Positions 29,652 through 64,000 of a DNA stretch of 64,000 nucleotides are shown in pieces (position 1 is the first letter of the stretch; every line of letters starts with the position of its first letter). This stretch comes from Flavobacterium zepuense (GTDB lineage Bacteria; Bacteroidota; Bacteroidia; Flavobacteriales; Flavobacteriaceae). The notes below the pieces were generated by a model. The model searched no databases, had not been told where the DNA came from, and was given only the letters and a program-made list of their open reading frames with translations. The stretch lies in NCBI RefSeq assembly GCF_007097145.1, contig NZ_VJVZ01000007.1, forward strand, positions 62,001 to 126,000. The letters are read 5' to 3'. The position numbers and the translations under genes were made by a program.

Positions 29652-29786
29652 TTATTTAGGCACACCGGAAAAAGGTTTTTTCTGTTTATCCTCTTTAGGA
29701 ATTTTATTAACCGTAGCTGCTATTAGAAAAAATACTGCAATAACCGAAATTGCAAGAATCACGAAGGTATTAACTAATGGATTCAT
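29652..29786 (-). CDS. Small single-pass membrane protein (44 aa)
   Basis: A short open frame, MNPLVNTFVILAISVIAVFF followed by a Lys-rich tail, with one transmembrane helix at about residues 6-26 and a charged C-terminus (IPKEDKQKK). Support comes from its context: a TATATTTG element at 29806-29813 lies 19 nt upstream, the same spacing as at thiN, and a strong terminator lies 26 nt downstream. I do not recognise a family. It follows lldD by 78 bp. Expression is likely, but coding status cannot be proven without homologues. Confidence 0.6.
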   Translation of the reverse strand: MNPLVNTFVILAISVIAVFFLIAATVNKIPKEDKQKKPFSGVPK

Positions 29787-29805
29787 AATGTAAGAGATTT
29801 ATAAT

Positions 29806-29813
29806 CAAATATA
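29806..29813 (-). promoter_or_regulatory. Candidate -7 element for the small membrane protein
   Basis: The minus strand reads TATATTTG, matching TAnnTTTG, 19 nt before the ATG at 29786. Confidence 0.45.
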
Positions 29814-29864
29814 TGAAATACAAATCAAATTCACTATATCGTTTTAGTTAATTATAGTCTTTGG

Positions 29865-31013
29865 CTACTTAATACGATGGTTGGGGAAATCCTGCACCCT
29901 TTCGCAGCACACCTGTTCCATAACCTGTTGCAGTTGTATTTTTAGCATAGAAATGGCGTGGCTGCCGCCTTCTTTGCCTAAGGCAGCTACACTATACATA
30001 AACGTCCTGCCCAGAAAGCTAAAGTCTGCACCACAAGCCAATGTCCGTGCCACATCTACCCCGGAGCGGATACCGCTATCCATCATGATCTTTATTTGGT
30101 CTTTATACTTTTCTACTATAGGATGCATAGAACTTATGGCGCTTTGCCCGGCATCAAGCTGCCTGCCCCCGTGGTTGGAAACAATTACACCATCAAAACC
30201 AAGCCTAATGGCCATTTCTACATCTTCGTTACTCGCAACACCTTTTAAAACCAGCTTGCCCTTCCATATATCGCGTATGGGCGCTATACGCTCCTCGTTT
30301 ACCCTGCCAGAAAAGGTACGGTTCATAAACTGCCCCAATTGCGCCATGTTTAAATCTTTAGGCATGTAAGGCTTAAGAGTTTCAAAAGCGGGTTGCCCAT
30401 GCATAAGTGTTTTAATTGCCCACTCCGGCCTGCCAAGTATTTGCATGATATTTCTCAACGTCATCCTTGGTGGCATGGCAAGCCCGTTACGAATATCGCG
30501 TGGCCTAAAGCCGAACGTAGGTACATCGCACAAAACCACCAATACAGGGTATTGTGCCGCCTCTGCACGCTTTATAATGCTATCCCTAACTTCAGTTTCG
30601 GCAGGATGGTACAACTGGTACCAGGCATGGCCTTGGGTAATTTCGCTTATGCGCTCAATACTGGCGGTAGTAACGGTGCTTAATATAAACGGAATATTAT
30701 GCTCGAATGCCGCCTTTGCCAAAATTTCCGGGGCATTGGGCCACATAAGCCCCTGCAAGCCAACAGGCGATATGCCAAACGGAGCATCATAGGTATGCCC
30801 AAACAACTCAGTCTTCATTTCCGACTTGGTATGTTTAGACAGATAATACGGCTTTAATTCAATATCCCGAATTTCGGCTGTATTCTTAATAAGGTTTACA
30901 TCTTCATTGCACCCACCATCTAAATATTCAAAAGCAAACCGCGGTATCTTGCGCTTTGCCTGTTTTATAAGGTCTTCTACCGATGGATAGTTGCTATTGT
31001 ATTTTAACTGCAT
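29865..31013 (-). CDS. lldD: FMN-dependent L-lactate dehydrogenase (alpha-hydroxy acid oxidase family)
   Basis: A 382-residue flavoenzyme oxidising L-lactate (or another 2-hydroxy acid) to pyruvate. It starts with the usual N-terminus (PSVEDLIKQAKRKIPRFAFEYLDGG). FMN-binding Lys257 lies in LVLKGVA, the catalytic His281 in SNHGGRQLD, and the phosphate-binding region is MMDSGIRSGVDV. The substrate-binding Arg is present in RPRDIRNG. It begins 10 bp after the kinase gene and is the last enzyme of the rhamnose transcript. This fits oxidation of the lactate that the fused aldolase/dehydrogenase should make from rhamnose, but exact substrate is inferred from context. Confidence 0.88.
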   Translation of the reverse strand: MQLKYNSNYPSVEDLIKQAKRKIPRFAFEYLDGGCNEDVNLIKNTAEIRDIELKPYYLSKHTKSEMKTELFGHTYDAPFGISPVGLQGLMWPNAPEILAKAAFEHNIPFILSTVTTASIERISEITQGHAWYQLYHPAETEVRDSIIKRAEAAQYPVLVVLCDVPTFGFRPRDIRNGLAMPPRMTLRNIMQILGRPEWAIKTLMHGQPAFETLKPYMPKDLNMAQLGQFMNRTFSGRVNEERIAPIRDIWKGKLVLKGVASNEDVEMAIRLGFDGVIVSNHGGRQLDAGQSAISSMHPIVEKYKDQIKIMMDSGIRSGVDVARTLACGADFSFLGRTFMYSVAALGKEGGSHAISMLKIQLQQVMEQVCCERVQDFPNHRIK

Positions 31014-31023
31014 TGTAAATTAT

Positions 31024-32400
31024 TTAAACGTCGAAAAATAACGGCACGAGCTTTTTCATGCGGTAGTTTTCTTTAAGGAATTTAGAGGTAACCTGCTTGT
31101 CTGATATTACCATGGCCGCACCAAGCGCAGAACCCAGTGGAGATTGTGTAGACAATACTTTAAAATTACTAAAATGATGCGACATTAATTTCATAAACAC
31201 ATCATTATCGGTAAAGCCTCCATCTATATAAATAGTCTTGATCTCGCTGTTGCCGATGGCGTTGCTAATAGTATCTATCTGTAACTCCATGAGCTCTATC
31301 ATTAGCTGATGGTATGCTTCTTCAAAGGTATCAAAAGGCTCCAACTCTGTTTCTTTAGGCAGGCGCTGTAACGATATGCCTTCAAATTTAAAGTATACTT
31401 TAGGCTTTTCTATAAGGCGCAGGTAAATATCCTGGTTAAAGGCAACGTTGCGGTGGTAGCCATAATCTTTTTTATAATATTCGGTAAGTTTTTCTACCTG
31501 AAGGCGGTACTCATTACCCATAAAAAAACGTGATGCCTTTACCCTTTTGCCATCAATTCGCAGATAGTTAAGGCAGTTGTTTTCTATATCTTCGGTACTT
31601 AAACTTTCTGAATTGTACGGGTTAAGTGCAATGCTCCACGTACCCGTACTAAGCAACAGGAAAGGTTTTTTCTTGCTCAAAATATAAGGCAGCAATGCCG
31701 AGGAACTGTCGTGTATGCCCACACCTATTTTTATTTTCCTGTCTTTGTACGTTGTATTAATACTCGCCGATGTAGGTACAATAGGCGGTAATATCTTGTC
31801 TATGCCCTCGGCATGCACCCAACTGTGATAATCTTCGGCATCATAGTCCCATAAGTTGGTATGGCAGCCTATGCTGGTGTATTCACTAACAGGTATCCCT
31901 GTAAATAAATAACTAAGGTACTGCGGCAAATGCAGGCTGTATTTAATGCGTGAAAAAATTTCGGGCTTGGTATATTTTAACCAATACAATTGCATGCCTG
32001 AATTTAGCATACCCGATTGTGGCGATGCCGTTTGGGCTGCAATAGTAAGTGAGTCGCCGTATCGTTTATAAAATTCATCGGTAACAAAATCCGGTATGTC
32101 CTTAGTATAATTATACAGAGGTGTAAGTGCCTTGCCTTTATAATCTAAATGCACCAGGCTGGCACCGTAAGATGAAAAGTTAAGTGTTTTAACATCATAC
32201 TCCTGATTATCAAGAACGCCGTCAAAAGTATTTTTCATCCACTCGCGCAATGCCTCCAGGTCTTCGGTTTCAAAGCCATCTTCATCCACAGTAAGCGGGA
32301 GGTTTACATATTCCCTATGTACCTCATTATAATCGTCATCAAAAAGAAAAAACTTTTTGTTGGTCTTACCTATATCAAATACGGCATTCACTTTAATCAT
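31024..32400 (-). CDS. rhaB: FGGY-family carbohydrate kinase, probable rhamnulokinase
   Basis: A 458-residue kinase of the actin-like FGGY fold. The N-terminal phosphate-1 motif is FDIGKTNKKFFLFD. The ATP-binding half has LLLSTGTWSIALNP (phosphate 2) and the adenosine motif IYIDGGFTDNDVFM, and QSPLGSALGAAM closes it. The order between rhamnose isomerase (3 bp upstream) and lldD makes L-rhamnulose the likely substrate. The protein is diverged from the E. coli RhaB type and resembles the kinase found with RhaI and the fused aldolase in other Bacteroidota. Cytoplasmic. Confidence 0.82.
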   Translation of the reverse strand: MIKVNAVFDIGKTNKKFFLFDDDYNEVHREYVNLPLTVDEDGFETEDLEALREWMKNTFDGVLDNQEYDVKTLNFSSYGASLVHLDYKGKALTPLYNYTKDIPDFVTDEFYKRYGDSLTIAAQTASPQSGMLNSGMQLYWLKYTKPEIFSRIKYSLHLPQYLSYLFTGIPVSEYTSIGCHTNLWDYDAEDYHSWVHAEGIDKILPPIVPTSASINTTYKDRKIKIGVGIHDSSSALLPYILSKKKPFLLLSTGTWSIALNPYNSESLSTEDIENNCLNYLRIDGKRVKASRFFMGNEYRLQVEKLTEYYKKDYGYHRNVAFNQDIYLRLIEKPKVYFKFEGISLQRLPKETELEPFDTFEEAYHQLMIELMELQIDTISNAIGNSEIKTIYIDGGFTDNDVFMKLMSHHFSNFKVLSTQSPLGSALGAAMVISDKQVTSKFLKENYRMKKLVPLFFDV

Positions 32401-32403
32401 AGC

Positions 32404-33684
32404 TTATAGTCCTGTAGCTTTAGATGTTGTACCACGCTCTTTTATAAGTTCTTCGCGCACCAAAAGTTTCCTGTAGGCCGCAAGCGGATCTATAACGCCA
32501 CCTGCGCTTAGCCTCGCCGCTTTTAGTATGGCCCTCACATCGGTACGATACGCATCCTGAAGTATCTCCTGGCATTGCACCACATCGTTTTCCTGCTGTG
32601 CAATCCTCAACGCTTTCTGGTCTACCAGCAGCGCCTGTGTATAGGCAATCAGGATAGCCTCCAACGACTGTATAAGGTCTTCTAAAGGGTCTTTAGTGTT
32701 ATGGCTTGCATCTATCATCCACGCAAGGTCCGGGTTGTTATGGTTGTTCTCCATACCGTAAACCAGCTCATTAAAGATAAGGAACAAAGCATACGGTTTT
32801 ATAGCGCCCACAGTAACATCGTCATCGCCATATTTACTGTCGTTAAAGTGGAAGCCTCCCAGCTTGCCCTTCATCATCAGCGTAGCTACAATTTGCTCTA
32901 TATTAGTGTTAGGCAGGTGATGCCCAAGGTCTACCAATGTATAAGCCCTCTCACCACAAGCATTTGCCAGCATGAACGATGTGCCCCAGTCCTGGATAAC
33001 CGTGCTGTAAAAAGCAGGTTCGTAAGGCTTGTATTCTATAAACAGTTTCCAATCCTGTGGCATGCCGGCGTAGATAGATTTAAGGCTGTTCTCGGTATGG
33101 CGCAACGCGGTTTGAAAGTTACGCTGCCCGGGGAAGTTAGCCCCATCAGCCAGCCATACGGTAAGGCTTTTAGAGCCTAACTGCTCGCCTATTTTTATAA
33201 CATCAAGGTTATGCTGAATGGCATATTCCCTTGACGCATCTACATGGCTGCTTAGTGAGCCAAATTTATAACTCTCTGTAGCGCCGGGCTGGTCCTGAAA
33301 GGTATTGGAGTTCATGGCATCAAAAATAATCCCGTGCCCCTGTGCTACTTCTTTAATCGTTTTATAATCCTGTGGGATATCCCACGGAATGTGCAACGAT
33401 ACCGCCCCAGCGGACTGCGTAAGGGCATGCAGCAGGCCTATATCGTCAAGCTTTTGCTCTAACGATGCCGGTTCGCCACCATAAGAAAATCGCCCGAAAC
33501 GGGTTCCCCCTGCGCCTAATGCCCAGCTGGGTATGGCAACCTGAAAATCGGCCACTTTTTTAATAACCTCATCAAGGCTTATACTATTGCGGCTTAATTT
33601 AGTATCCAAAAGGTTTAACTCTTCCTGATATGAATTATCCTGTGTTTTATTTAAATCAGCAATATGCTGTGCGGTAATCTTCAT
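32404..33684 (-). CDS. rhaI: L-rhamnose isomerase, RhaI type
   Basis: Converts L-rhamnose to L-rhamnulose. The 426-residue protein is of the RhaI class, a TIM barrel related to xylose isomerases and distinct from E. coli RhaA. Readable features are PSWALGAGGTRFGRFSYGGEP near the N-terminus and the metal-binding carboxylates and His in LFIEYKPYEPAF, TLVDLGHHLPNTNIEQIVA and GGFHFNDSKYGDDD. It is spaced 20 bp from the fused aldolase and 3 bp from the kinase, so it is co-transcribed. Confidence 0.92.
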   Translation of the reverse strand: MKITAQHIADLNKTQDNSYQEELNLLDTKLSRNSISLDEVIKKVADFQVAIPSWALGAGGTRFGRFSYGGEPASLEQKLDDIGLLHALTQSAGAVSLHIPWDIPQDYKTIKEVAQGHGIIFDAMNSNTFQDQPGATESYKFGSLSSHVDASREYAIQHNLDVIKIGEQLGSKSLTVWLADGANFPGQRNFQTALRHTENSLKSIYAGMPQDWKLFIEYKPYEPAFYSTVIQDWGTSFMLANACGERAYTLVDLGHHLPNTNIEQIVATLMMKGKLGGFHFNDSKYGDDDVTVGAIKPYALFLIFNELVYGMENNHNNPDLAWMIDASHNTKDPLEDLIQSLEAILIAYTQALLVDQKALRIAQQENDVVQCQEILQDAYRTDVRAILKAARLSAGGVIDPLAAYRKLLVREELIKERGTTSKATGL

Positions 33685-33704
33685 AGTGTTTAATTTAAAG
33701 CTTG

Positions 33705-35801
33705 TTAACGTACAAAGGCATTGGCCATGCCGCCATCTACATTAATAGTGTTTCCGGTACTTTTGTTGAGTATTGCAACACAGGCAAAAACGCCGTTTGC
33801 AATATCATCCGGGTAAATAATTTCGTTAAGCAGGTTGCGCTTGGCATAATGCTTAGGCAACTCCTCTACCGTTATACCATAGGCTTTGGCGCGGCCTTCG
33901 GCCCACTCGCCTTCCCATATTTTACTGCCCACAATAACACCATCAGGGTTTACTGTGTTAACACGTATCTTATCGGTGGCAAGTTCTGCGGCAAGCAGTC
34001 GCGTCATGTGCTGTTGGGCTGCTTTTGCAGTACCATAGCCCACATTGTTAGGCCCTGCTACAAGACCGTTCTTACTGGCAATATTTACAATATCGCCGCC
34101 AAGGCCCTGTTTTCTCATAATAGCAACTCCCTGCTGCGCCATAAGGAACTGCCCTTTTACCAATACGTTTTGAAGGATGTCCCAGTCTTTTAACGTGGTA
34201 TCTTCTAACGATTTAGAAATAGCAAGCCCGGCTGAATGTACAATAATATCTACACCGCCAAAAGCAAGCGAAGCTTTTTTATAAGCCTCTGCAATAGCAT
34301 TGGCATCGGTAACATCGCACACTACGGTTTCGGCCTGGTCTTTTTTATAGGTTTTAAGTGCTGTATCCAAAGCTTCTGCACTCAGGTCGGTAAGTACTAC
34401 AACGGCACCTTCGGCAACCAGTTTATCGGCAATAGCCTTACCAATACCGCCACCGGCACCGGTAACAATGGCTACCTTGCGCGAAAGTGGTTTTTCGGCC
34501 GGCATACGTTGCAATTTAGCCTCTTCAAGCAGCCAGTATTCTATATCAAAAGCTTCCTGCCTTGGTAACGATGTATACGATGTTATCGCCTCGGCACCGC
34601 GCATTACATTAATGGCGTTTATGTAAAACTCACTGGCAACGCGGGTGGTTTGCTTATCTTTTGCAAAACTGAACATACCCACACCCGGATAAATAATGAT
34701 AACCGGATTAGGGTCTCTCATAGCTGGGCTGTTAGGGTGCTTACAGTTTTCATAATACTGCTTGTATTCTTCGCGGTACTGTGCAAAAGCCGGTTTCAGT
34801 TTTTCCAGAATTGCAGCAGTATCGTCTATATTTTCATCCACAGGTAAATTTAAAACCAGTGGCTGTATCTTGGTGCGTAAAAAGTGATCCGGGCACGAAG
34901 TCCCCATTGGGGCAAGTCGCTCCAGGTCGTTACTATTAATGTATTCCATTACCACATCGCTGTCGGTAAAATGGCCAATCATCCTGTTTTCGCTTGATGC
35001 AAGCCCACGTAACAAAGGCATTATGGCCGCAGCTTTTTCAAGGCGCTGTTCGTGCGGAAGCCCCTCAATCTTAGCCCCGCCAAAAACACTGCCTTTCTGG
35101 GCAATTTTTTTAGCAATATATTTAGAAGCCATCTCTATAACCTCTAAACTGTTGATGTAGCATTCGTATGATGTATCGCCCCAGGTAAACAAGCCGTGGC
35201 TACCTAATATAATACCCCTTATGCCGGGATTATCGGCAAGGCATTTTTCCAGCTGAAGGCCCAAATCAAACCCCGGACGCTGCCATGGCACCCAACCCAT
35301 AGTATCGCCCCAAATTTCTTTAGTTACCTGTTCGCTGTCTTTAGCGGCAGCAACGGCAATAAGTGCATCGGGGTGCAGGTGGTCTATATGTTTAAAGGGT
35401 AGTAATCCGTGTAGTGGCGTATCTATAGAGGGTGCTTTACTGTTAAGGTCGTAAATACAATGGTCAAAAAGGCCTACCATGCGGTCTTCATCAGCAAGGC
35501 CGCCGTATACATTTTTAAGGTCGCGCAGCCTGCCGGTGTAGAGGCCTGCAATGCCGCTGCGGGTAAGGGTGCCAATATCGCCCCCAGATCCTTTTACCCA
35601 CATTACCTCAACCTCTTCATTAGTAAGAGGGTCTTTTTCTATTGTTTTGCAGGATGTGTTGCCACCTCCATAATTTGTTATCCTAAGATCGGCACCTAAA
35701 ATATTTGAACGGTACAGGAACAAGGCCACCTGGTCATCGCCAAGCTGTGCCGCTTTTTGCTCATCCCACAAATAATCTACATATTGAAAGGTCTTTTCCA
35801 T
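33705..35801 (-). CDS. Bifunctional rhamnulose-1-phosphate aldolase / L-lactaldehyde dehydrogenase
   Basis: A natural fusion of 698 residues. The N-terminal part (about 1-420) is a class II aldolase: metal-binding His in HGLLPFKHIDHLHPDAL and in GSHGLFTWGDTSYE. It cleaves L-rhamnulose-1-phosphate to DHAP and L-lactaldehyde. The C-terminal part (from about residue 440) is an SDR with TGAGGGIG, HSAG, and YGTAKAAQ. In characterised homologues the SDR part oxidises lactaldehyde to lactate. The fusion channels lactaldehyde, and lldD three genes downstream would take lactate to pyruvate. No separate rhaD is present. Confidence 0.93.
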   Translation of the reverse strand: MEKTFQYVDYLWDEQKAAQLGDDQVALFLYRSNILGADLRITNYGGGNTSCKTIEKDPLTNEEVEVMWVKGSGGDIGTLTRSGIAGLYTGRLRDLKNVYGGLADEDRMVGLFDHCIYDLNSKAPSIDTPLHGLLPFKHIDHLHPDALIAVAAAKDSEQVTKEIWGDTMGWVPWQRPGFDLGLQLEKCLADNPGIRGIILGSHGLFTWGDTSYECYINSLEVIEMASKYIAKKIAQKGSVFGGAKIEGLPHEQRLEKAAAIMPLLRGLASSENRMIGHFTDSDVVMEYINSNDLERLAPMGTSCPDHFLRTKIQPLVLNLPVDENIDDTAAILEKLKPAFAQYREEYKQYYENCKHPNSPAMRDPNPVIIIYPGVGMFSFAKDKQTTRVASEFYINAINVMRGAEAITSYTSLPRQEAFDIEYWLLEEAKLQRMPAEKPLSRKVAIVTGAGGGIGKAIADKLVAEGAVVVLTDLSAEALDTALKTYKKDQAETVVCDVTDANAIAEAYKKASLAFGGVDIIVHSAGLAISKSLEDTTLKDWDILQNVLVKGQFLMAQQGVAIMRKQGLGGDIVNIASKNGLVAGPNNVGYGTAKAAQQHMTRLLAAELATDKIRVNTVNPDGVIVGSKIWEGEWAEGRAKAYGITVEELPKHYAKRNLLNEIIYPDDIANGVFACVAILNKSTGNTINVDGGMANAFVR

Positions 35802-35950
35802 TATATATTACAATGATTTGATTGAATTTATATTTATTACTCATCCAAAAGTACCTCTATTGCATTAGTAAGGTATCCTGTACTGTACAGCCTGAGACTA
35901 ATATTTTTGATGCAATTTGGTAAACAATCTATTTTAATTGAGGCATGCCT
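35802..35950 (-). promoter_or_regulatory. Gap between rhaM and the aldolase fusion, with a short palindrome
   Basis: This 149-bp gap holds CTGTAC-T-GTACAG at 35878-35890, a 13-bp perfect palindrome 77 bp upstream of the aldolase start. It may contain an internal promoter; no clear -7 octamer was found. Confidence 0.3.
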
Positions 35951-36265
35951 TTAAGGCAGATAAAAGACCTCTTTAAGCGGCGTGCTTACCGGCGAATTAT
36001 CTGCGTTGCTTTGCATGATGTCCTTCATATACGCCCACCATTTTTGCATGACCGGATGCGAGGGCAAGTCATCAAATTTTGACCGGTCGCTTATAAGCAG
36101 TGTGCCAAACAACGCATTTGTAGATTCATCTAAAAAAATAGAATAATCACTTACACCTGTTTGCTTCAGCAAGTTTTCAAGCTCCGGCCACAACTCATCA
36201 TGGCGTTTTTTATATTCGGCTTCAAAGCCTTTATGCAATTGCATTTTAAATGCTAATCGTTTCAT
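35951..36265 (-). CDS. rhaM: L-rhamnose mutarotase
   Basis: Interconverts alpha and beta anomers of L-rhamnose. Starting at [10 protein letters not shown] (ATG at 36265) the protein is 104 residues, exactly the length of E. coli RhaM. The catalytic residues of that enzyme are conserved at the same numbers: His22 ([11 protein letters not shown]), Tyr41 (SDYSIFLD) and Trp76-Trp77 (QKWWAYM). The C-terminus [15 protein letters not shown] is nearly identical to that of E. coli. An upstream extension of the frame is not coding. It lies 84 bp downstream of the transporter gene. Confidence 0.95.
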
Positions 36266-36349
36266 TTTTCTCTTGATTAATGTTTGAATTTTCAGAGTAT
36301 ATAATGTCTGACAACTGTCAACCGGCAACCAACAACTAATAACGGCAAC

Positions 36350-37438: not shown

Positions 37439-37521
37439 AAAAATATGTTCTTTACTAATTATACCTTGTACAGGTAACACTTGTTAAAAGTGTGAAAATA
37501 GCTATATTAAAAACAAGCACC

Positions 37522-37539
37522 GTCATGTAGTGTCATGTA
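37522..37539. promoter_or_regulatory. Tandem direct repeat upstream of rhaT
   Basis: GTCATGTA occurs at 37522-37529 and again at 37532-37539, exactly 10 bp apart (one helical turn). It lies 84 bp upstream of the rhaT ATG, in the gap separating the pectin enzymes from the rhamnose genes. Candidate site for an activator. Confidence 0.45.
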
Positions 37540-37615
37540 AAATTATAGTATCAAAAAATTTAATTAATTATAATTTCACTTAGTGCAATTTTATAAAACT
37601 TATATCTAAATAATC

Positions 37616-38761: not shown

Positions 38762-38782
38762 AATCAGTGGGAGTTTGTATTC

Positions 38783-39568: not shown

Positions 39569-39571
39569 GCG

Positions 39572-41476: not shown

Positions 41477-41532
41477 TATGGTATAATTTTTAGTTAGATG
41501 TAATCAATAAAACTGTTGTTAGTACAAACGCG

Positions 41533-44678: not shown

Positions 44679-44680
44679 TT

Positions 44681-49692: not shown

Positions 49693-49705
49693 GGTCATTC
49701 CCTCC

Positions 49706-51070: not shown

Positions 51071-51102
51071 GATATTATAAGATATGTGTTTGTTTTTAGT
51101 GG

Positions 51103-53952: not shown

Positions 53953-54057
53953 ATAATTGGTGTGCATAATCATGGTAATAAAAAAGCTAATCTAACAAGT
54001 TAATGGTAAAGGAGTATCCCGAAGTGTCCTGTACGGAATCGTTATCGTGAATTTTTT

Positions 54058-54091
54058 AGGATATAGCTATCCTGGCCGCAGGAGTGCAGCC
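54058..54091 (-). repeat. Two consecutive hairpins between the GH42 and GH2 genes
   Basis: AGGATA/TATCCT around TAGC (54058-54073), then GGCCGCA/TGCAGCC around GGAG (54074-54091, one mismatch). No T tract follows on the minus strand beyond short runs. They lie about 105 bp upstream of the GH2 ATG. Confidence 0.5.
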
Positions 54092-54113
54092 GGGTATATT
54101 TAATGAGAGAACC

Positions 54114-56195: not shown

Positions 56196-56264
56196 GTATG
56201 ATACTTTTTTGTGAGGTACAGTAATTTAGTTTTTTAGCGATGATTTAAGTGTAAGTAAAACACT

Positions 56265-57803
56265 TTACAATTTTAAGCTTTTTAACGTCTTAAATTTCTT
56301 ATCCTTTAAATTATTTACACGATGGATGCTAAAATCGGTTACATTTTTCAATTCAAACACCGTTACATCAGGCATGGTTTGAACGGTAATATCATAAAAA
56401 TCAGCGCCTTTAACATCCTCTAATATAAAAGCAGGCCGCCAATCGGGGTTGTCAAATTCCATTGTAATATGGTGCATACTAATATTGCGCGCATGGCGAA
56501 TGTAAAAGCCATAGGCGGGTATTTTCCCAAACTCCTGAGGGTCGGGGTACGAGGTTTCATGCTCCGGCACTATAACTTTAGATTGTTCCTGAGACCCGCC
56601 GCCCGTTATTTTAATATGGATGTTAGAAAACACGATATCCTCTACATCATGGCCGGGTATGCCCATGAGCATCGACCCGTATTGCGGATTTGAAGCCGTA
56701 ATAATTACATTATCAATCAATACACGTTTAAAGCTGCCTACTTTTGCATCAGACGGGCCACGCATCCTCCTGCCAAGCCTGAAAAAGAACGGCGCGTTAC
56801 GTATATCATCCATAACAATGTTAGATACTGTGATGTTCTCCAGCACGGACCCATCAACGGTTTCAAGCGCTAAGCCGCGGCAATGCTGAAAAGTACAATT
56901 GCTTATGGTAATGTTTCTGAAATCACCGTTAGATTCGGTTCCCAGTTTTATACGGCCGGTAACCACGCCTTTATCCGGCGCGGCTTTTTGTGTGGTTTTA
57001 AACGAGCCATCAAGAAAAGTGCCCTCATCATACCCATACACCGCGCAGTTGGTAATGGTAATATTTTCGGTACGCGCGGCATAGCCCAATGCGTAGGAAG
57101 CCTTTAGCACCAGTGCATCATCATTAGGGGAGTTAAGCGAACAATCGGAAACGTGCACATACCGGCAACAATCTATATCTATGGCATCGCGATTGGTATC
57201 GATCTTTAAGTTATTGATGGTCATGTTATCTACACCCGTAGCCAGGATAGCAAAATGCCCGCCCTGCAATACGGAAAAATCACGCAGTGTAACGTTGCGG
57301 CATTTTTTAAGGGCGATAGATTTATTGCCAAGCCCGGGTGTAGTCTTCCCCCATTTTTGCAGGCCTCTGCCGTAAATCAACCCCGGGCCTATAATGGAGA
57401 TATTATTTAAGTCTTCGCCCCAAATAAGGCTGTTATGGAAATGGCTGTGCCCAAAATCCTGGTACTGTAATGAGTCGCCCCACACGTTGGGTTCAGGATC
57501 GTCGTATTTACCCTTTTGGTCGTCCATATTGGCAGCAATAAGGGTAGACCCCGCACTGAGGTAAAGCGTAATATTACTTTTAAGGCGGATGGAAAAACTA
57601 AGGTAGTTGCCTGCCGGAAAATATACCGTACCGCCACCTGCCATTGCTGCTGCATTGATAGCATTGTTTATGGCATCGGTATCTAAATGGATGCCATTGC
57701 CCATTGCTCCAAAGCTTTGCACATTAAATACAGCATCGTTATCAGGCCTGGCATAACCAAGCCAAGTACTTAACAGCATCAAATAAAATAGCACGATCTT
57801 CAT
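56265..57803 (-). CDS. GH28-family pectin hydrolase with altered active-site motifs
   Basis: A 512-residue right-handed beta-helix protein with a signal peptide ending near residue 19. It starts with the GH28 opening FNVQSFGAMGNGIHLDTDAINNAI. The first two catalytic motifs are recognisable: TNRDAIDID (for NTD) and SPNDDALVLK (paired Asp). However, the His motif (GHG) appears as TGRIKLGTES, and the RxK motif appears as GLALETVDGS. It may therefore act on a different linkage, such as galacturonate-rhamnose bonds, or use other residues. It lies 3 bp after the next GH28 gene, so it is co-translated. Confidence 0.85.
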   Translation of the reverse strand: MKIVLFYLMLLSTWLGYARPDNDAVFNVQSFGAMGNGIHLDTDAINNAINAAAMAGGGTVYFPAGNYLSFSIRLKSNITLYLSAGSTLIAANMDDQKGKYDDPEPNVWGDSLQYQDFGHSHFHNSLIWGEDLNNISIIGPGLIYGRGLQKWGKTTPGLGNKSIALKKCRNVTLRDFSVLQGGHFAILATGVDNMTINNLKIDTNRDAIDIDCCRYVHVSDCSLNSPNDDALVLKASYALGYAARTENITITNCAVYGYDEGTFLDGSFKTTQKAAPDKGVVTGRIKLGTESNGDFRNITISNCTFQHCRGLALETVDGSVLENITVSNIVMDDIRNAPFFFRLGRRMRGPSDAKVGSFKRVLIDNVIITASNPQYGSMLMGIPGHDVEDIVFSNIHIKITGGGSQEQSKVIVPEHETSYPDPQEFGKIPAYGFYIRHARNISMHHITMEFDNPDWRPAFILEDVKGADFYDITVQTMPDVTVFELKNVTDFSIHRVNNLKDKKFKTLKSLKL

Positions 57804-57806
57804 GTA

Positions 57807-59495
57807 TTATTTTGTTTTGGATAATTTCACGGCAGCTTTGTTCACGTCCCTGGCAATTGACGTTTTTTCTTTACCGTAAACCGATTTGATGTTGATATTT
57901 TTCGACTTGCTGCCCGATACTTCATAAACTGTAGCCTGATCATCAGTAGTTGTAAAGCCATCTATAGCAACATCTTTTACATTTTTAAGGATAAGGGCCG
58001 GGCCGCCGTCCACCGTGACCTTTATATTTTTAAGCCTGATATTTTCTGACTCTGTCAGTTCTGCACCTTTTTTGGCGTGTACTGTAATATTCTCAATATT
58101 AATGTTTTCGATATTTTTTTCGGGCAAACCATTAAAGAACATTGCCCTTCCGGCATTGCTGCACACCACATTTTTTATATAGATGTTCCTGAAAACGGGG
58201 GTGGTTTCATCTACCACAGGCAAAACGTCTTGTTTAGGTGTTTCGATACCCTGCTCTAAGGTTTCAACCGCCGACTTTCCGCCATAATACAGGTCAAAAA
58301 GCAATGGCTCGGTAGCGATATCAAACATGCTGATGTTGGAAATGTAAATATTCTCGACCACGCCTCCCCTGCCCCTTTTGCTTTTAAAGCGCAGGCCAAC
58401 ATCGGTACCTAAAAACTGGCAGTTGGATACCCAGATATTCCTCACCCCGCCCGACATTTCACTGCCCACTACAAATCCACCATGCCCCCTGAACACGGTA
58501 CAGTTGTTCACAATTACATTCTCACAAGGGAAATTGCGTTTCCTGCCGTCTTCATCCTTGCCTGATTTGATGCAAATGCCGTCATCGCCCGCATCAAACG
58601 TGCTGTTAACGATAATGGCGTTTTTGCAGGACTCCAAATCGAGCGCATCGCCGTTTTGCGCATACGGCGGATTGCGTGCCATGATACTGTCTATAATGAT
58701 ATTCTCGCACATTAACGGGTGCAGGTTCCACGCCGGTGAATTTTGAAAGATAACGCCCTGTAACAGTACGTTTTTACAGTTTTGAAGGCTCACCATTACC
58801 GGCCGCAAAAAATCGCGTATGGATGCCCAGTCAGCATCGGTATTTAAGTTGCGCGGTACATTCATATCGCTTATCGAATCGCCATGGCGAAACTGTTTAG
58901 ATGGCATCCAGTAGTCGGCGCGCTTAAACGTACCGCCCTTTGAGGTAGCCTCTTTCCAGAATTTATCCGATACCTTATCTTTCTTTAACGCCCTCCAGTA
59001 CTGCCCGTTACCGTCTATAGCGCCTTTGCCCGTTATAGCAACGTTAGTTAAATCCTTGCCCCAGATAGGCGACTGGCAGCGGCGGGTATCCAGCCCTTCA
59101 AAAGAAGTATCTACTATGGTATACAGGTCTTTATCGGGCGAGAACAAGATGATGGCGTTGTCCTGCAAGTGCAGGTTAATGTTACTTTTGAGCACGATAG
59201 GCCCGGTAAACCATACTCCTGCGGGAACAATGAGCCTGCCACCTCCTTTTGCTGATAGTACCGCTATAGCTTTGGCAAAGGCATTAGTGTTTAATGTAAC
59301 GCCATCGCCCACCCCACCAAAATCTTTGATGGAAACATCGTAATCAGGAAAAACGGGTGCAGATAGCACCGGCATCTCAAAAGGGAGGTTGTTGTATAAA
59401 TATTCGTAACCGGTTTTTGCAGTTTTGTCCTGAGCGTAAAAATTTAAGTTGCAAAAAAGCGTGAAAACGAAAACCAAAAGTGAAATATTAGCCAT
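57807..59495 (-). CDS. GH28 polygalacturonase/rhamnogalacturonan hydrolase, canonical motifs
   Basis: Starting at MANISLLVFVFTLF (ATG at 59495) the protein has 562 residues and a proper signal peptide (cleavage after LNFYAQ); the upstream open extension would overlap the GH105 gene. The beta-helix has all four GH28 motifs: NGDALDLE, AGDDGICIKSG, RGHGGFVVGSE and RFKSKRGRGG. The pattern is that of exo-acting GH28 enzymes. Copy D of the dispersed 20-base motif coincides with its first codons. It is exported and acts with the PL11 and GH105 enzymes on the backbone. Confidence 0.92.
   Translation of the reverse strand: MANISLLVFVFTLFCNLNFYAQDKTAKTGYEYLYNNLPFEMPVLSAPVFPDYDVSIKDFGGVGDGVTLNTNAFAKAIAVLSAKGGGRLIVPAGVWFTGPIVLKSNINLHLQDNAIILFSPDKDLYTIVDTSFEGLDTRRCQSPIWGKDLTNVAITGKGAIDGNGQYWRALKKDKVSDKFWKEATSKGGTFKRADYWMPSKQFRHGDSISDMNVPRNLNTDADWASIRDFLRPVMVSLQNCKNVLLQGVIFQNSPAWNLHPLMCENIIIDSIMARNPPYAQNGDALDLESCKNAIIVNSTFDAGDDGICIKSGKDEDGRKRNFPCENVIVNNCTVFRGHGGFVVGSEMSGGVRNIWVSNCQFLGTDVGLRFKSKRGRGGVVENIYISNISMFDIATEPLLFDLYYGGKSAVETLEQGIETPKQDVLPVVDETTPVFRNIYIKNVVCSNAGRAMFFNGLPEKNIENINIENITVHAKKGAELTESENIRLKNIKVTVDGGPALILKNVKDVAIDGFTTTDDQATVYEVSGSKSKNINIKSVYGKEKTSIARDVNKAAVKLSKTK
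59474..59493 (-). repeat. Copy D of dispersed motif, at a GH28 start
   Basis: The minus strand reads GGCTAATATTTCACTTTTGG, beginning at the third base of the GH28 ATG and covering its first seven codons. The same 20 bases occur at 19542-19561. Confidence 0.6.
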
Positions 59496-59502
59496 ATTTT
59501 TT

Positions 59503-60660
59503 CTATTTTTTGAGTTCAAGGCACCCCATGATAAATGGCCCGGTTGCCTTGGCATCGTTATCGCGAATGCGTTCAGTTACATAGTACTCAAAACTGCCGT
59601 CACGGTATGGTGTACCCCCTAAACCTGCTACAGCACAGCACTTTGTGAGCTTTAATGTGCCATCGGCATTTTCAACTATCAGGTTGTCCATCAGCCCGTT
59701 ATAGGCTTTTTCGGCCACTTTTTTGTATTTGGTATCTATATATCCCTTATTTACCGCCTTTGCATATGAATACATAAACATAGACGACACCGAAGCCTCC
59801 AGGTAATTACCTGATTGTGAACCTTTATCGACAACCTGGTACCATAAGCCGGTTTTATCCTGGTAACGGGTAAGTGTCTCTGCTAATTCTCTGACCATAC
59901 GTAGCAATTCAGGGCGTTTCGGGTGATTTTCAGGTATATAGTCCAATGTATCTACCAGTGCCATGTACCACCAGCCTATACTTCTGCCCCAAAAATTAGG
60001 CGACTGCCCTGTGGTTGGGTTGGCCCATTTTTGGGTCTTGCTTTCATCCCAGGCATGGTAATACAGGCCGGTTTTTGCATCATAAGTATGCTTAGCGCAT
60101 ATAAGAAACTGGTTTACAACATCATCCGTGAGTTCCGGTTTATTAAAGGTTACTGCATACTGCGCAAGAAATGGCGACCCCATGTACAGGCCATCCAGCC
60201 ATATTTGATGCTGATAGATAAGCTTATGCCAAAAGCCGCCCTCCAGCGTGCGCGGGTGGTTGCGCATCTGCTCTACCAGCCTGTCCATCGCCAGTTTATA
60301 CTTGTTATTACCGGTTTGCTTATACACATCAAAAAGTACCTTACCGGCGTTAACGTAGTCAATGTTATAGGTTTCAGGCTTATACAAATGGATCTCACCC
60401 TTATCGTTAATAACGGTATCAGTCCATTTGGTTACGTAATCCAGATATTTTTTATCGTTGGTAGCGTTCCACACCTTTAGCAACGCCAGGCAGCCAAGCC
60501 CTTGGGAATAACCAAAATACAGCCGGCTACCATGGTCTAACTGCCACGCCTGTGGAAAACGTTTCATCTCAGAATCAGCAAATTGTATAGCCGTCTTTTG
60601 AGCTTTTAAACCCGGAGTTACAAACAGCAATACGGCGAATATTAAAAAATATTTCCTCAT
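59503..60660 (-). CDS. GH105 unsaturated rhamnogalacturonyl hydrolase (third copy)
   Basis: A 385-residue exported GH105 protein with a signal peptide ending near residue 20 (GLKAQ). The barrel motifs are QAWQLDHGSRLYFGYSQGLGCLALL, EGGFWHKLIYQHQIWLDGLYMGSPFLAQYA (catalytic Asp region), NFWGRSIGWWYMALVDTLDYIP and LEASVSSMFMYSYAKAVNKGYID. The C-terminal CCAVAGLGGTPYRDGSFEYYVTE is typical of the YesR/YteR group. It sits between the six-hairpin glycosidase (13 bp) and the GH28 gene (7 bp). It is the closest of the three copies to classical rhamnogalacturonyl hydrolases. Confidence 0.93.
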   Translation of the reverse strand: MRKYFLIFAVLLFVTPGLKAQKTAIQFADSEMKRFPQAWQLDHGSRLYFGYSQGLGCLALLKVWNATNDKKYLDYVTKWTDTVINDKGEIHLYKPETYNIDYVNAGKVLFDVYKQTGNNKYKLAMDRLVEQMRNHPRTLEGGFWHKLIYQHQIWLDGLYMGSPFLAQYAVTFNKPELTDDVVNQFLICAKHTYDAKTGLYYHAWDESKTQKWANPTTGQSPNFWGRSIGWWYMALVDTLDYIPENHPKRPELLRMVRELAETLTRYQDKTGLWYQVVDKGSQSGNYLEASVSSMFMYSYAKAVNKGYIDTKYKKVAEKAYNGLMDNLIVENADGTLKLTKCCAVAGLGGTPYRDGSFEYYVTERIRDNDAKATGPFIMGCLELKK

Positions 60661-60673
60661 AATACTCTAATTA

Positions 60674-62812
60674 TTAAGGCATTGGTTTGAGGCCTTCCCA
60701 AACTACGTTCCACATACCATCTTTAGGGAAACCGGGATTTGTAACTGTGTTGCCGTCCCATCCGGCGCACATCATGGCCACTGCGGCAAGCAGCCCCCCA
60801 TTACCCGGAAGGTACACCCGTAGCCGCTCATCCTGGTAGTTGTGCCCGTTTATTAAATAGGTATTGGTGCGTTTATCCATAAGCAGTGCGCCAACAGCTT
60901 TGTCGGGCTCGCCCATTCGCGCGGCGCTCATGGCTACCATTGGGTAATCCCAGCCCCAGGTTTCATCCCAGTTCCAGTTATCCCAAATCCAGTTCAGGGT
61001 ATTTTTCATGACCTCCGGCTTTGCTAATCTGCTTTGCGGCAGTATGCCTAATGCCCCTAAAACAGCGGGATGGTCTGACGTAAAGCGGATATCAGTATAG
61101 GTATTCAGGGCATCTTCCGAAGCCAGATACAAACCATCTTTAGCGGCAAGCGGTGATAGTTTTTTAATAAGGTCGTCCCATTGCGGGTTACGTTTTTGCC
61201 CCATACGCTCCCTCCACTGTTGCGCCACCTGCATGGCATAGTGCCAATAGGATAGCTCAAAAGGTGGATTGATAGTCTCTGAAGCTTTAAGGGTTTCCTG
61301 TGCCGCGATGATACCTTTTAAAACATAACGATCCTTAACCTTATCATAATCAGCGAATGAGGCCATAAATTCGGCGGTTTGCTGCACGAGGAAGTTATAC
61401 TTCTCCAAGACCTCTTTATTGGGCTTATTCCTGTAAATAAGCTCTGACATGTATATAAAATGGGGCTGTTGCCAAATGAGGAACGACCCCACACCCGATG
61501 GCGCTTCCTGTGCGGTAGGATCGGTCATTTTCATCCAACGAATGCCTTTAAACCCCTGCCTTTCTGCAATTTGCTTTGCTATTGGGTAGGCTGTAGTGTA
61601 CCAGTCCATACTGCGTTCCAGCAAATCGGTACGGTTCCATAAGGCAAAATGGGCAGCATGCCACCAGTGCATTTCGAGATGGAATTTTCCGAACCAACTG
61701 TTATATGTAAGCCCCGTTTCCTGCGGTGGGTATTTACCAGCCGACTGTATTGCCATTAGGTATTGCGACAGTATAACGCGGCGTTCCAGCTCCTTGGCTC
61801 TTGCATCGGTACATTTTGAAAAATCTACAGCGGCACCTTTTTGCCAGAACATATTCCAATACGTTGATGTTGCAGCATAGGTTTCATGAATTTTAGTTGT
61901 AGTTACAGCAGGTGCTTTTTCAGTAAACGTACAGGTAAACGAGAATTGGTCGCCTTGTAGCGAAAGAATAAAGTAATGCGCCTCTTTTTGTTGCAAAACT
62001 GCTTTACCATCATATTTTACTGATACATAGTACACTGTAGTATCTAATGTTCGTTTGAATACAAATGAATGTTCATCCTGAGAAATGATTTCAGTTTTAT
62101 GTTTTGAAGCTGAAGTCCAGTCAGTTGCATCATCGGTATGTTTACCTGTGGGATACGGAAAGCGAAAATTCACCTTTAACTGCTTTTTGGCGATAAGCCC
62201 TGATTTAATAGTGACTGCTAATTGGTCGAGCACAGGGTGTACAGCCGTTTTGACTGAAACCGCCTCATCTTCAATTGTATAGTTGCTTTCTATCAACCCA
62301 TTCCACAGGTCAAGCTGTTGGTCTATATTAATGATCTCCTGTATATCTGCCGGTTTACCATTGCCCTTAAGTAGCTCAAGGCCAACATACCCCAAATGCA
62401 GCCTGTGAAGGTTTGCCCTGAAATAATCAGCCGCTTCCTGCTGCCTGCCCGGCTCCTTAAACTGAACGGCATATGGCTCTTCCTTATCTCTGAAGTTGTA
62501 GTTTTTTAAAGCTTCTTCGCGCTTAAAGCCCTTAGTATCAGGAAAACTATGCCATCCACATTGCGATTGTGTACCTAAAGGCACACCACTGGCATAAAGC
62601 GCTGGGAATGTTTGCAGCCCGGTGGCATCTACAGTATAGGCAAAATTACCGTTACCTACTGATAATGAGGATAGTTTATCAAACTGCCTTATGTGCGGAT
62701 TGTTTCTTTTTACCAATGCCTGCCTGTCAATCTTAGCTGTAGTTTGCGCACTAATTGATAGCGAACAAAAGGCCAGCAAACAGAAAAACATTTTCTTTAT
62801 ATTCTTATTCAT
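60674..62812 (-). CDS. Exported six-hairpin glycosidase of uncertain family
   Basis: A 712-residue protein with a signal peptide ending near residue 22 (SISAQ). The N-terminal 280 residues are beta-rich (VGNGNFAYTVDATGLQTFPALY), as in GH65/GH95-like supersandwich domains. From about residue 330 an (alpha/alpha)6 barrel follows, with GLTYNSWFGKFHLEMHWWHAAHFALWNR, SFLIWQQPHFIYMSELIYR, PPFELSYWHYAMQVAQQWRERMG and WNWDETWGWDYPMVAMSAARMG. Conserved acidic residues in HLEMHWWH, FELSYWHY and WDETWGWD are candidates for catalysis. I cannot assign a CAZy family. Its place among RG-I enzymes predicts a pectic side-chain or end residue as substrate. Confidence 0.7.
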   Translation of the reverse strand: MNKNIKKMFFCLLAFCSLSISAQTTAKIDRQALVKRNNPHIRQFDKLSSLSVGNGNFAYTVDATGLQTFPALYASGVPLGTQSQCGWHSFPDTKGFKREEALKNYNFRDKEEPYAVQFKEPGRQQEAADYFRANLHRLHLGYVGLELLKGNGKPADIQEIINIDQQLDLWNGLIESNYTIEDEAVSVKTAVHPVLDQLAVTIKSGLIAKKQLKVNFRFPYPTGKHTDDATDWTSASKHKTEIISQDEHSFVFKRTLDTTVYYVSVKYDGKAVLQQKEAHYFILSLQGDQFSFTCTFTEKAPAVTTTKIHETYAATSTYWNMFWQKGAAVDFSKCTDARAKELERRVILSQYLMAIQSAGKYPPQETGLTYNSWFGKFHLEMHWWHAAHFALWNRTDLLERSMDWYTTAYPIAKQIAERQGFKGIRWMKMTDPTAQEAPSGVGSFLIWQQPHFIYMSELIYRNKPNKEVLEKYNFLVQQTAEFMASFADYDKVKDRYVLKGIIAAQETLKASETINPPFELSYWHYAMQVAQQWRERMGQKRNPQWDDLIKKLSPLAAKDGLYLASEDALNTYTDIRFTSDHPAVLGALGILPQSRLAKPEVMKNTLNWIWDNWNWDETWGWDYPMVAMSAARMGEPDKAVGALLMDKRTNTYLINGHNYQDERLRVYLPGNGGLLAAVAMMCAGWDGNTVTNPGFPKDGMWNVVWEGLKPMP

Positions 62813-62829
62813 AACAGCCTGTTTTTAAA

Positions 62830-64000
62830 CTATTCAGCTTTTATTTTAACATTTTTTAAAACCACATTGTTAATGGTTTTTACCTTTTCTTCAGCACCAT
62901 TTTTAGATCTAATTGCCACATTTTCAAAGGTAAAATCCTTTAATTCGTACTTGTCGGATTCGGCAATATCAAAGCCAACCTTACAGTCCAGCTTTATGTT
63001 TTTCATGGTTATATTTTGCGCATAAGACATTAAAGGTTCTGTACGGCCTTTTAAATCAAAGAATTGCGTCCACGGTTTGATGCTGATCAGGCTTCCTGCA
63101 TCTCCGGTAATATCTTCAACCAAAATGTATTCATACAGCTGTGGCGTATCAGGCCGTATTTTAAGGTGCAGTGTTTTTTCGGCCTCATGAAGTTTGCATC
63201 GCCTGAAGATAACATTGTAATTATGAATGGATTCGCTACCGCAGGTTAACGCGCTGTGGCAAAATCCGTACTCGTTATCCTCTATGATAATGTTGCGGTT
63301 TTCGCCATTATTTCCGTCATTATCGGCATATGGGCCTTTGCCGCCTTTTAGGGCAACGGCATCATCATTAACAGACATATAGCAGTTTTTAATGAGGAAA
63401 TTGGTGCATACATCAATGTCCACAGCATCGGTGCTTGGGGCTTTTACAGGGGCTTTAGGCGAGGTAATGCGAAGGTTTAAAAGCTTAACATTATGGCATT
63501 TATAAAAATGGGTGGTCCAGAATGGAGAGTTCTTTAAGCTAATACCTGATATCTGAACATCCTTACTGTTTGACACATACACCAGCCGCGGGCGCATTTC
63601 ATCTTTATTAGTACACTTGGGATTAAATTCCCTGCGCAGCCAAAAGGCTTTCCAGTAGCGCAACCCATTACCATCTATAGTACCTTTACCACTCATACTG
63701 AATCCGTTAACCCCATCGGCATTTACAAGTGCGGGGAAATATTGGCATGTTTCCCCCTCCATACGGGTAGTAATCACTGGGAAGTTACTAATATCATCGC
63801 TGCCTTTAAGCACTCCATCTTTTTCGATGTAAAGGTGCGTGCCCTGCTTAAAAAAGAGCGCTCCGCTAAGGTAAGTGCCTTTAGGTATGATGATTACGCC
63901 ACCACCAGCCTGCGCCGCCTTGTCTATCACTGCCTGTATTTTAACTGTCTGAACCAGGGTACTATCGGTGCTAACCCCATGATCTGTGAGCTTATACTGT
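62830..64000 (-). CDS. GH28-family hydrolase, N-terminus beyond the window
   Basis: The frame is open from the stop at 62830 to the right edge (about 390 residues); a GTG at 63930 is internal, since DHGVSTDSTLVQTVKIQAVI upstream is the usual GH28 opening. Motifs are APSTDAVDID, VNDDAVALKGG, GFCHSALTCGSES (His kept, HS instead of HG) and HLKIRPD. This pattern resembles rhamnogalacturonan-active GH28 proteins of Bacteroidota more than polygalacturonases. It is 17 bp upstream of the six-hairpin glycosidase gene and is the first visible gene of the cluster. Confidence 0.88.
   Translation of the reverse strand, partial: QYKLTDHGVSTDSTLVQTVKIQAVIDKAAQAGGGVIIIPKGTYLSGALFFKQGTHLYIEKDGVLKGSDDISNFPVITTRMEGETCQYFPALVNADGVNGFSMSGKGTIDGNGLRYWKAFWLRREFNPKCTNKDEMRPRLVYVSNSKDVQISGISLKNSPFWTTHFYKCHNVKLLNLRITSPKAPVKAPSTDAVDIDVCTNFLIKNCYMSVNDDAVALKGGKGPYADNDGNNGENRNIIIEDNEYGFCHSALTCGSESIHNYNVIFRRCKLHEAEKTLHLKIRPDTPQLYEYILVEDITGDAGSLISIKPWTQFFDLKGRTEPLMSYAQNITMKNIKLDCKVGFDIAESDKYELKDFTFENVAIRSKNGAEEKVKTINNVVLKNVKIKAE

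Follow-up and report, generated by a model that had tools for sequence, protein, structure and literature searches.

A stretch of 64,000 nucleotides of the Flavobacterium zepuense genome (hereafter the window; C39:62001-126000, from an assembly of 4.76 Mb that comprises 41 contigs) carries a gene cluster that, in our favoured explanation, is a polysaccharide utilization locus (PUL) for rhamnogalacturonan I (RG-I) with catabolism of both backbone sugars, rhamnose and galacturonate, on board. We hold this explanation to be probable when taken as a whole, that is, the RG-I PUL and both sugar catabolisms together with a proposed shared regulon run by a GntR-type regulator. An end of the locus at the window edge (64000) was ruled out: genes continue to ~82780 (coordinates are continued beyond 64000 throughout), giving 33 genes in 53 kb. 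Judged by gene content alone, the cluster is a good RG-I PUL of an ordinary sort. What the analysis adds of most use is a candidate operator, a 17-bp direct-repeat element shared by promoters of sugar and polymer genes. One regulon over the two is the simplest reading, which the conserved DNA sites suggest, and the GntR protein probably runs it.

The element was discovered when 92 upstream regions from six genomes were scanned with palindromes as seeds. The palindrome candidate taken further proved to be for the most part a direct repeat with a 10-bp period, RCAGGAYANNRCAGGAY; the scan also gave other candidates, many of them AT-rich (for example, the AAAACGTTTT type in some susC gaps), which were not used. 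RCAGGAYANNRCAGGAY matches the genome exactly in two places, the GH115/susC gap (67473) and the DUF4861/gntR gap (80177), and with one mismatch in eight, one of these upstream of GH28c (64213), compared with the 10 matches in all there are 5 for the reversed pattern. Relaxing one position per half to G or T (K) gives the 17-bp element RCAKGAYANNRCAKGAY, which gains a further exact match before rhaT (37522), a position at which four relatives have a similar site. In the 4.76 Mb, RCAKGAYANNRCAKGAY is matched exactly three times, each time within the locus (the rhaT, susC/GH115 and gntR gaps). Across the six genomes 14 of the 20 exact matches fall inside the locus, and another precedes a paralogue of gntR in F. 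rivuli by ~0.4 kb. With one mismatch allowed, the signal is weak; the counts for the element and its reversed pattern are 34 versus 14 in F. rivuli, 37 versus 13 in F. sp. Sd200, and 16 versus 7 and 15 versus 5 in two Chryseobacterium genomes.

As these loci had served to build the pattern, the element was tested elsewhere. Thirty-two rhaEW neighbourhoods were fetched from other genomes of the family; one (3.2 kb, at a contig end; L128) was dropped, leaving 31, of which 30 are from other genera and one (L097) is from the same genus. The 300 bp upstream of rhaEW contain the element within one mismatch in 19/31 and within two mismatches in 25/31, compared with a mean of 0.045 (maximum 3) and 0.46 (maximum 8), respectively, for 200 permuted patterns in the same 31 regions. 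The 32 fetched neighbourhoods hold 33 matches within one mismatch, and eight permuted patterns give 0 to 3. In the same-genus neighbourhood the element is absent before rhaEW and present before rhaT. Within the genome, tolerance of a mismatch makes for weak specificity of the element.

A position weight matrix (PWM) was also built from 24 rhaEW-upstream sites in other genera, none of them from this locus (1 of 25 sites, L123, was cut short and dropped). In the 78-kb region of the F. zepuense locus it ranks the sites before rhaEW (24.2), in the GH115/susC gap (20.4), in the DUF4861/gntR gap (19.0), before GH2 (15.6) and before rhaT (12.9). Four sites score at least 15, against a mean of 0.13 (maximum 1) in 100 shuffles and 0.2 (maximum 2) with 200 column-permuted models. 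The 31 genomes belong to one family and their rhaEW promoters are not independent; shared ancestry of the rhaEW promoter does not, however, explain the element at susC, gntR and GH2 here. The shared element expected of a single regulon is clear at four promoters (rhaEW, susC/GH115, gntR and GH2) and weaker at rhaT, GH28c and GH43. The first-pass annotation of this DNA had named separate regulation of sugar genes and polysaccharide enzymes as one of the outcomes that would overturn its view of the locus; the shared DNA element argues against such separation.

The GntR protein is the likely regulator because it is the only one met among the 33 genes, because the gntR gap has the element and because its relatives adjoin rhaEW or rhaT in other genomes, in several with the element between them. 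Indeed, the gntR/rhaT gaps of F. plurextorum, F. oncorhynchi and two metagenome-assembled genomes (MAGs) each contain the element with one mismatch. No hybrid two-component system (HTCS) was found by Pfam among the 33 genes scanned, the sole regulator being of GntR type. We infer from the sequence that GntR binds the 17-bp element at rhaEW, susC/GH115, DUF4861/gntR and GH2 and, less surely, at rhaT, GH28c and GH43. It would probably sense rhamnose or a product of rhamnose, such that sugar genes, polymer enzymes and importer would respond together, with PL11, uxaA, GH106, GH42 and uxaC assumed to be co-transcribed by read-through from other promoters. In the parts available of the open-licence literature searched, neither a GntR/rhamnose regulon nor the present operator was recognised as described for Flavobacteriia; PMC12858550, in the part available, employs the E. 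coli rhamnose regulator.

A number of observations weigh against this reading. The element was discovered by scanning these same upstream regions, and the position in each half was relaxed after the rhaT sites had been seen. By PWM the site before rhaT scores 12.9, level with the background maximum (12.8, in 68 kb of other loci of this genome), GH28c (8.8) and GH43 (6.9) fall below that maximum, and a site within kduI reaches 12.7. The one-mismatch signal is weak in F. zepuense (10 matches versus 5 for the reversed pattern before relaxing, 24 versus 13 after it) and in F. akiainvivens (22 versus 20). Taking the best GntR relative in eight genomes, the element lies within the fetched 4-kb locus in 5/8; none was found within the fetched 4-kb gntR locus of Sd200 and both Chryseobacterium. 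No GntR is nearby in 7/31 rhaEW neighbourhoods, 6 of which still have the element. There is no element directly before PL11, uxaA, GH106, GH42 or uxaC, and a Crp-like gene stands just left of the locus. RhaI, the kinase, LldD, UxaA, KdgA, the MFS transporter, GH106, GH2 and two GH28 score below curated NCBIfam cut-offs; kdgK lies outside the locus and no kduD was met there. Finally, F. rivuli is without susC/D of this kind (100 kb read) and Sd200 without GH106 (80 kb read).

Some of these points would sit well with another transcription factor, encoded elsewhere, that binds the element while GntR is merely a neighbour. This fits the six neighbourhoods that keep the element near rhaEW without a nearby GntR, and its absence around gntR in the fetched loci of Sd200 and both Chryseobacterium. 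GntR-family operators are usually inverted repeats, from which the direct-repeat layout differs, and a second GntR-like gene, 40% identical, lies at C2:22795. We nevertheless consider such a factor somewhat unlikely: the element sits in the stretch that separates gntR from the gene divergent to it, both in F. zepuense and in a number of relatives, and also precedes the F. rivuli paralogue; no other regulator was recognised by eye among open reading frames (ORFs) of at least 150 aa upstream of rhaEW in the seven neighbourhoods that lack a GntR; and the rhaEW copy in the window also reads as an inverted repeat, CTGTAC-A-GTACAG. A related doubt concerns the effector, which could be a uronate or a rhamnogalacturonide instead of rhamnose, given that gntR here is divergent from the DUF4861-kduI-uxaC run and not from the rha genes. 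Among the 31 neighbourhoods, though, 24 have a relative of GntR, at 41-72% identity, in the 20 kb fetched around rhaEW, compared with uxaA and uxaB near rhaEW in 1, and GntR relatives adjoin rhaT in F. plurextorum, F. oncorhynchi and two Bacteroidota MAGs. A uronate or rhamnogalacturonide as effector is an idea we rather doubt.

Control by several independent regulators of the RG-I locus and the neighbouring sugar genes is an explanation we regard as unlikely. The element would then mark only the rhamnose genes and a few promoters, with uronate genes and PL11-GH106 controlled otherwise. Consistent with this, only rhaEW, susC/GH115, gntR/DUF4861 and GH2 clear the background by the independent PWM, the element is missing directly before uxaA, PL11, GH106, GH42 and uxaC, and in B. 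thetaiotaomicron separate regulators are assigned to the three functions (PMC3878776, in the part available). Against it, the short gaps (15/21 of at most 35 bp) favour read-through, the DUF4861-kduI-uxaC-kdgA-transporter run begins at the gntR gap with its exact element, and there is no HTCS, AraC or LacI gene by Pfam among the 33 genes. The polymer itself might also be a different one containing rhamnose and uronate, such as RG-II, arabinogalactan caps or ulvan. Neither GH115 nor GH43 belongs to the enzymes of the RG-I backbone, and one relative (L124) has a sulfatase-like ORF, recognised by eye, near rhaEW. Ulvan loci with rhamnose genes, like the RG-I enzymology of B. thetaiotaomicron, have been published. 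The RG-I backbone is the match for PL11, for the two GH28 that exceed the rhamnogalacturonidase cut-offs and for a GH106 of BT4145 type, and we hold another polymer to be very improbable. A GntR-run RG-I regulon remains the explanation that we prefer.

The enzymes listed in the first-pass annotation for 29865-64000 were all identified by Pfam/NCBIfam profiles, with the third GH28 crossing the window edge (Table 1). Its placement of the genes on one strand also holds, since all locus genes from 29865 to 64000 are on the minus strand; they are transcribed from right to left, from the BT4153-like GH28 to the FMN-dependent lactate dehydrogenase. The gaps, described as mostly 3-35 bp, are at most 35 bp in 15/21 cases, two of these being overlaps, and the remaining six are 56-177 bp (with corrected RhaM and RhaT starts). 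Beyond the window are SusC/D, uxaC and kdgA, all of which had been proposed for inspection there; kdgK, likewise proposed, is not present. The SusC/SusD pair adjoins carbohydrate-active enzyme (CAZyme) genes, as in a PUL, and the enzymes expected of an RG-I PUL, a backbone lyase together with rhamnogalacturonidase, GH105 and rhamnosidase, are all present, as PL11, BT4146- and BT4153-like GH28 above cut-off, three GH105 and GH106, from which RG-I degradation is predicted. The LldD-like gene, the 276-aa protein and the 712-aa protein had been missed. Overall, the observation is confirmed and the interpretation first given to it partly supported.

Table 1. Genes and candidate operators of the F. 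zepuense RG-I locus, by window coordinate and, beyond 64000, by continued coordinate.
Feature	Coordinates	Strand	Evidence and remarks
Crp-like gene	28935-29504		just left of locus, outside the 33 genes
LldD-like FMN-dependent L-lactate dehydrogenase	29865-31013	-	PF01070 385 bits; NCBIfam L-lactate dehydrogenase 286 bits, below cut-off 376
RhaK-type FGGY kinase, rhamnulokinase by position	31024-32400	-	PF00370, PF21546; NCBIfam rhamnulokinase 55 bits, cut-off 528; position adjoining rhaI/rhaEW conserved
RhaI L-rhamnose isomerase, rhizobial type	32404-33684	-	TIGR02629 500 bits, below cut-off 647
RhaEW fused rhamnulose-1-phosphate aldolase/lactaldehyde dehydrogenase	33705-35801	-	NF006191 1367 bits, cut-off 1240
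Candidate operator upstream of rhaEW	35872-35891	-	best PWM score in 78-kb region; two mismatches to first consensus
RhaM L-rhamnose mutarotase	35951-36265	-	ATG start 36265 (open frame to 36328); TIGR02625 133 bits, cut-off 99.6
RhaT L-rhamnose/proton symporter	36350-37438	-	ATG start 37438 (open frame to 37480); NF010024 502 bits, cut-off 468
Candidate operator upstream of rhaT	37519-37538	-	exact RCAKGAYANNRCAKGAY match; PWM at background level
GH105 unsaturated uronyl hydrolase a	37616-38761	-	PF07470 258 bits
GDSL (CE12-like) esterase 1	38783-39568	-	PF13472/PF00657
PL11 rhamnogalacturonan-I lyase	39572-41476	-	PF21348 705 bits, PF18370
UxaA altronate dehydratase	41533-43170	-	PF20629 317 bits, PF04295; in NCBIfam only galactarate dehydratase, 295 bits, below cut-off 731
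UxaB tagaturonate reductase	43176-44705	-	NF002969 553 bits, cut-off 359
DUF4350/GATase1-like 276-aa protein	44681-45511	-	PF14258 29 bits, just under cut-off
GH106 alpha-L-rhamnosidase, BT4145-like	45534-48323	-	PF17132 246 bits; NF049897 1045 bits, below cut-off 1300
GDSL esterase 2 (CE12-like) with galactose-binding-like domain	48358-49698	-	PF21254, PF13472
GH105 unsaturated uronyl hydrolase b	49706-51070	-	PF07470 290 bits
GH2 beta-galactosidase, BT4156-like	51103-53973	-	PF02836/PF02837; NF049891 846 bits, below cut-off 1700
Candidate operator upstream of GH2	54013-54032	-	fourth best PWM score in 78-kb region; above background maximum
GH42 beta-galactosidase	54114-56195	-	PF02449 398 bits
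GH28 rhamnogalacturonidase, BT4146-like	56265-57803	-	NF049898 738 bits, cut-off 500
GH28 alpha-galacturonidase/polygalacturonase-like	57807-59555	-	PF00295 117 bits; NF049892 278 bits, below cut-off 800
GH105 unsaturated uronyl hydrolase c	59503-60660	-	PF07470 395 bits
712-aa protein, distant GH65-like candidate glycosidase	60674-62812	-	no Pfam/NCBIfam match at first cut-offs
GH28c rhamnogalacturonidase, BT4153-like	62830-64155 (window part to 64000)	-	NF049899 759 bits, cut-off 650
GH115	64303-67158	-	
SusC	67559-70645	+	TIGR04056 790 bits, cut-off 368
SusD	70664-72622	+	PF07980
GH28, BT4155-like	72791-74158	+	below its cut-off
MFS transporter, putative hexuronate uptake	74330-75718	-	
KdgA	75749-76438	-	
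UxaC	76537-77940	-	
KduI	about 78003-78800	-	
DUF4861	78829-80019	-	
GntR regulator with LacI-type effector domain	80268-81314	+	
GH43	81311-82780	-	

In the proposed flow, SusC/D would import RG-I pieces, which PL11, GH28, GH106, GH105, GH2, GH42, GH115 and the GDSL esterases would trim to rhamnose, galacturonate, unsaturated galacturonate and galactose, with sugar uptake by RhaT and the MFS transporter. Rhamnose would pass to dihydroxyacetone phosphate and pyruvate via RhaM-RhaI-kinase-RhaEW-LldD. Galacturonate would yield pyruvate and glyceraldehyde-3-phosphate via UxaC-UxaB-UxaA, a KdgK encoded elsewhere in this genome and KdgA, and KduI would be the entry step for the lyase-derived unsaturated uronate. 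Complete routes for both sugars had been claimed. The rhamnose part stands: the RhaEW-type set of RhaI, kinase, RhaEW, transporter and mutarotase is present (RhaI and kinase under their NCBIfam cut-offs), and we propose that the LldD-like gene, if acting as named, extends it to pyruvate. The galacturonate part does not, since the window holds only two of its steps and the whole 53-kb locus lacks kdgK from the UxaC-UxaB-UxaA-KdgK-KdgA set. Loss of kdgK from the genome was considered and rejected: a PfkB kinase on another contig (C2:6487-7419) is a candidate, 67% identical to the kinase found between kdgA and uxaC in F. rivuli and F. akiainvivens. The F. akiainvivens locus also holds a short-chain dehydrogenase-like ORF; no KduD was met in the locus here. 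The second GntR-like gene (C2:22795-23778) is ~15 kb from the likely kdgK and possibly belongs to another uronate locus.

A role for LldD is consistent with reports that bacteria with RhaEW have lldD or lldEFG among the members of some regulons (PMC3870299, in the part available). A relative of LldD is present in 21/31 other rhaEW neighbourhoods, and in four without one (L108, L109, L112 and L116) ORFs with LldE/LldF-type beginnings, recognised by eye, adjoin rhaEW; the one scanned (L109) has an ORF whose score against the LutB/LldF model, 436 bits, falls slightly short of the cut-off of 445. Whole-genome matches at E up to 1e-40 number one each for UxaB and PL11, and RhaEW has one full-length match among the matches listed. 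Between 29000 and 38000, a sigma-70 scan gave 20 promoter-like sites, no excess over a shuffle mean of 21.3, and a terminator scan gave 17 terminator-like sites, an excess over shuffles (9.6, s.d. 3.3); neither was used.

Locus proteins are up to 94% identical to those of F. rivuli, and a PL11-based search for related loci returned 20. F. rivuli, F. akiainvivens and F. sp. Sd200 have PL11-uxaA-uxaB with the rha genes, GntR and most CAZymes in largely conserved order, with rhaT, gntR and susC/D rearranged in Sd200. In two genomes of Chryseobacterium, the order of PL11, GH106, GH2 and the rha genes is conserved in part, without uxaAB between. The F. rivuli locus is split by ~47 kb (G396:C1 about 111400-158700) of genes unrelated-looking by eye, helicase-like and transporter-like ones among them, and exact matches to the element occur in each part.

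In a sample of the family, near full-length RhaEW at 1216 bits or more occurs in 33/149 genomes (32 over its cut-off), UxaB over cut-off in 43/149 and PL11 in 7/149. PL11 lies within ~30 kb of RhaEW on the same contig in 5/7 PL11 genomes. UxaB lies as close to RhaEW in 1/7, this genome, and in one other the two share a contig ~100 kb apart. Enzymes of the present kinds, with identities of at least 36%, occur in 8/31 rhaEW neighbourhoods (one by the 712-aa protein alone) and weaker ones in three more; SusC occurs in 8/31. Rhamnose genes within such loci are therefore not rare in the family. The pair uxaA and uxaB accompanies rhaEW in a single neighbourhood, whose UxaB passes its model. Hence, uxaAB inside such loci is rare in the family, and the special point of this lineage is the combination of rha genes, uxaAB and polymer enzymes. 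The F. zepuense UxaB is the third lowest among 47 family matches over cut-off, and shares 58% identity with a copy from another family (L057) that adjoins a long ORF with DUF4350; the uxaAB block may thus have been transferred. In C. piscicola (L094 5600-20000, L095; G395:C11 about 765600-839600) ~74 kb separate rhaEW and rhaI, compared with 178 bp in C. cheonjiense. The first 14 kb of this interval were read and have large ORFs not placeable by eye, and it may be an inserted element that splits the rha operon.

Two proteins without clear family recur in such loci and are testable as RG-I enzymes or accessory factors. The 276-aa protein corresponds to the C-terminal part of a 614-677-aa frame in 7/10 of its relatives in the class. 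The N-terminal part of the long frame is GH105-like, with YteR-type matches in the Protein Data Bank (PDB; one relative searched), and a UxaB-like sequence adjoins 5/10 class relatives. Its structure model (mean confidence, pLDDT, of 80) has Foldseek matches to IFT52 GIFT, ThuA-like and GH42 structures. The 712-aa protein occurs in 9/247 genomes of a class sample, this genome counted. As a single sequence it has no PDB match up to E 0.1, and a profile of 11 relatives gives distant matches to GH65 structures (E 2e-4 to 8e-4). Weak Pfam matches to PF03632 (5/11 members) and PF14498 (3/11) occur in its family, the window protein itself being without a GH65 match, and in one relative the 712-aa type shares a reading frame with a GH105-looking sequence, by eye. 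A structure model from four sequences was unusable (pLDDT 41). We take the 712-aa protein as a candidate glycosidase of GH65/GH95-like fold. GH115, an alpha-glucuronidase family, recurs next to such enzymes here and in three other loci (L035, L102 and L125), and may point to glucuronic-acid-bearing side chains, the RG-I backbone being without glucuronic acid.

The embedding of sugar catabolism is not special to this genome, being found in F. rivuli, F. akiainvivens and Sd200, for the rhamnose genes in 8/31 family neighbourhoods and, as a precedent, in Gramella flava (PMC5306329, in the part available). Gramella flava JLT2011 resembles F. zepuense in having complete rha genes clustered with lyase/GH genes, and uxaA, uxaB, uxaC, kdgK, eda and kduI in a pectin PUL; there, however, these form two separate clusters, whereas a single locus contains PL11 and the genes for both sugars here. 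Its authors report no rhamnogalacturonan lyase and no significant change of the rhamnogalacturonan cluster on pectin (same part of PMC5306329). The RhaEW-type regulons of Chloroflexus, Bacillus, Actinomycetales and others share the RhaEW pathway and differ in their DeoR, LacI and AraC regulators; the word GntR is absent from the main text of PMC3870299. F. rivuli and F. akiainvivens, unlike F. zepuense, keep kdgK in the locus.

The RG-I locus of B. thetaiotaomicron, BT4145-BT4183, is close in its enzymes, with proteins here matching the models for GH106 (BT4145), GH28 (BT4146, BT4153 and BT4155) and GH2 (BT4156), and SusC/D occurs in both (PMC3878776, of which a part was available for this and the following). 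There, the RG-I locus is assigned to the HTCS BT4178/BT4182, the rhamnose genes to the AraC-type RhaR (BT3768) and uronates to the LacI-type KdgR/UxaR, which bears out the first-pass annotation in calling the present arrangement the tighter one. Here, by contrast, no HTCS was met, the sugar genes are inside the locus and there is one GntR regulator. We tentatively suggest, as a proposal with somewhat less than an even chance, that in these Flavobacteriia one cytoplasmic GntR sensing a backbone monosaccharide took over the whole RG-I system, from the outer-membrane importer and the polymer enzymes to uptake and catabolism of the two backbone sugars, through a family-wide direct-repeat operator, in a locus that would also have an unassigned GH65-like glycosidase and a GH105-associated GATase-fold protein. 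The single regulator would then have replaced both the oligosaccharide sensor and the separate sugar regulators of Bacteroides. If the single-regulon reading is true, the released monosaccharide would control a complex pectin system in a simple way, and the motif would be ready for finding rhamnose-linked polysaccharide loci across Flavobacteriaceae.

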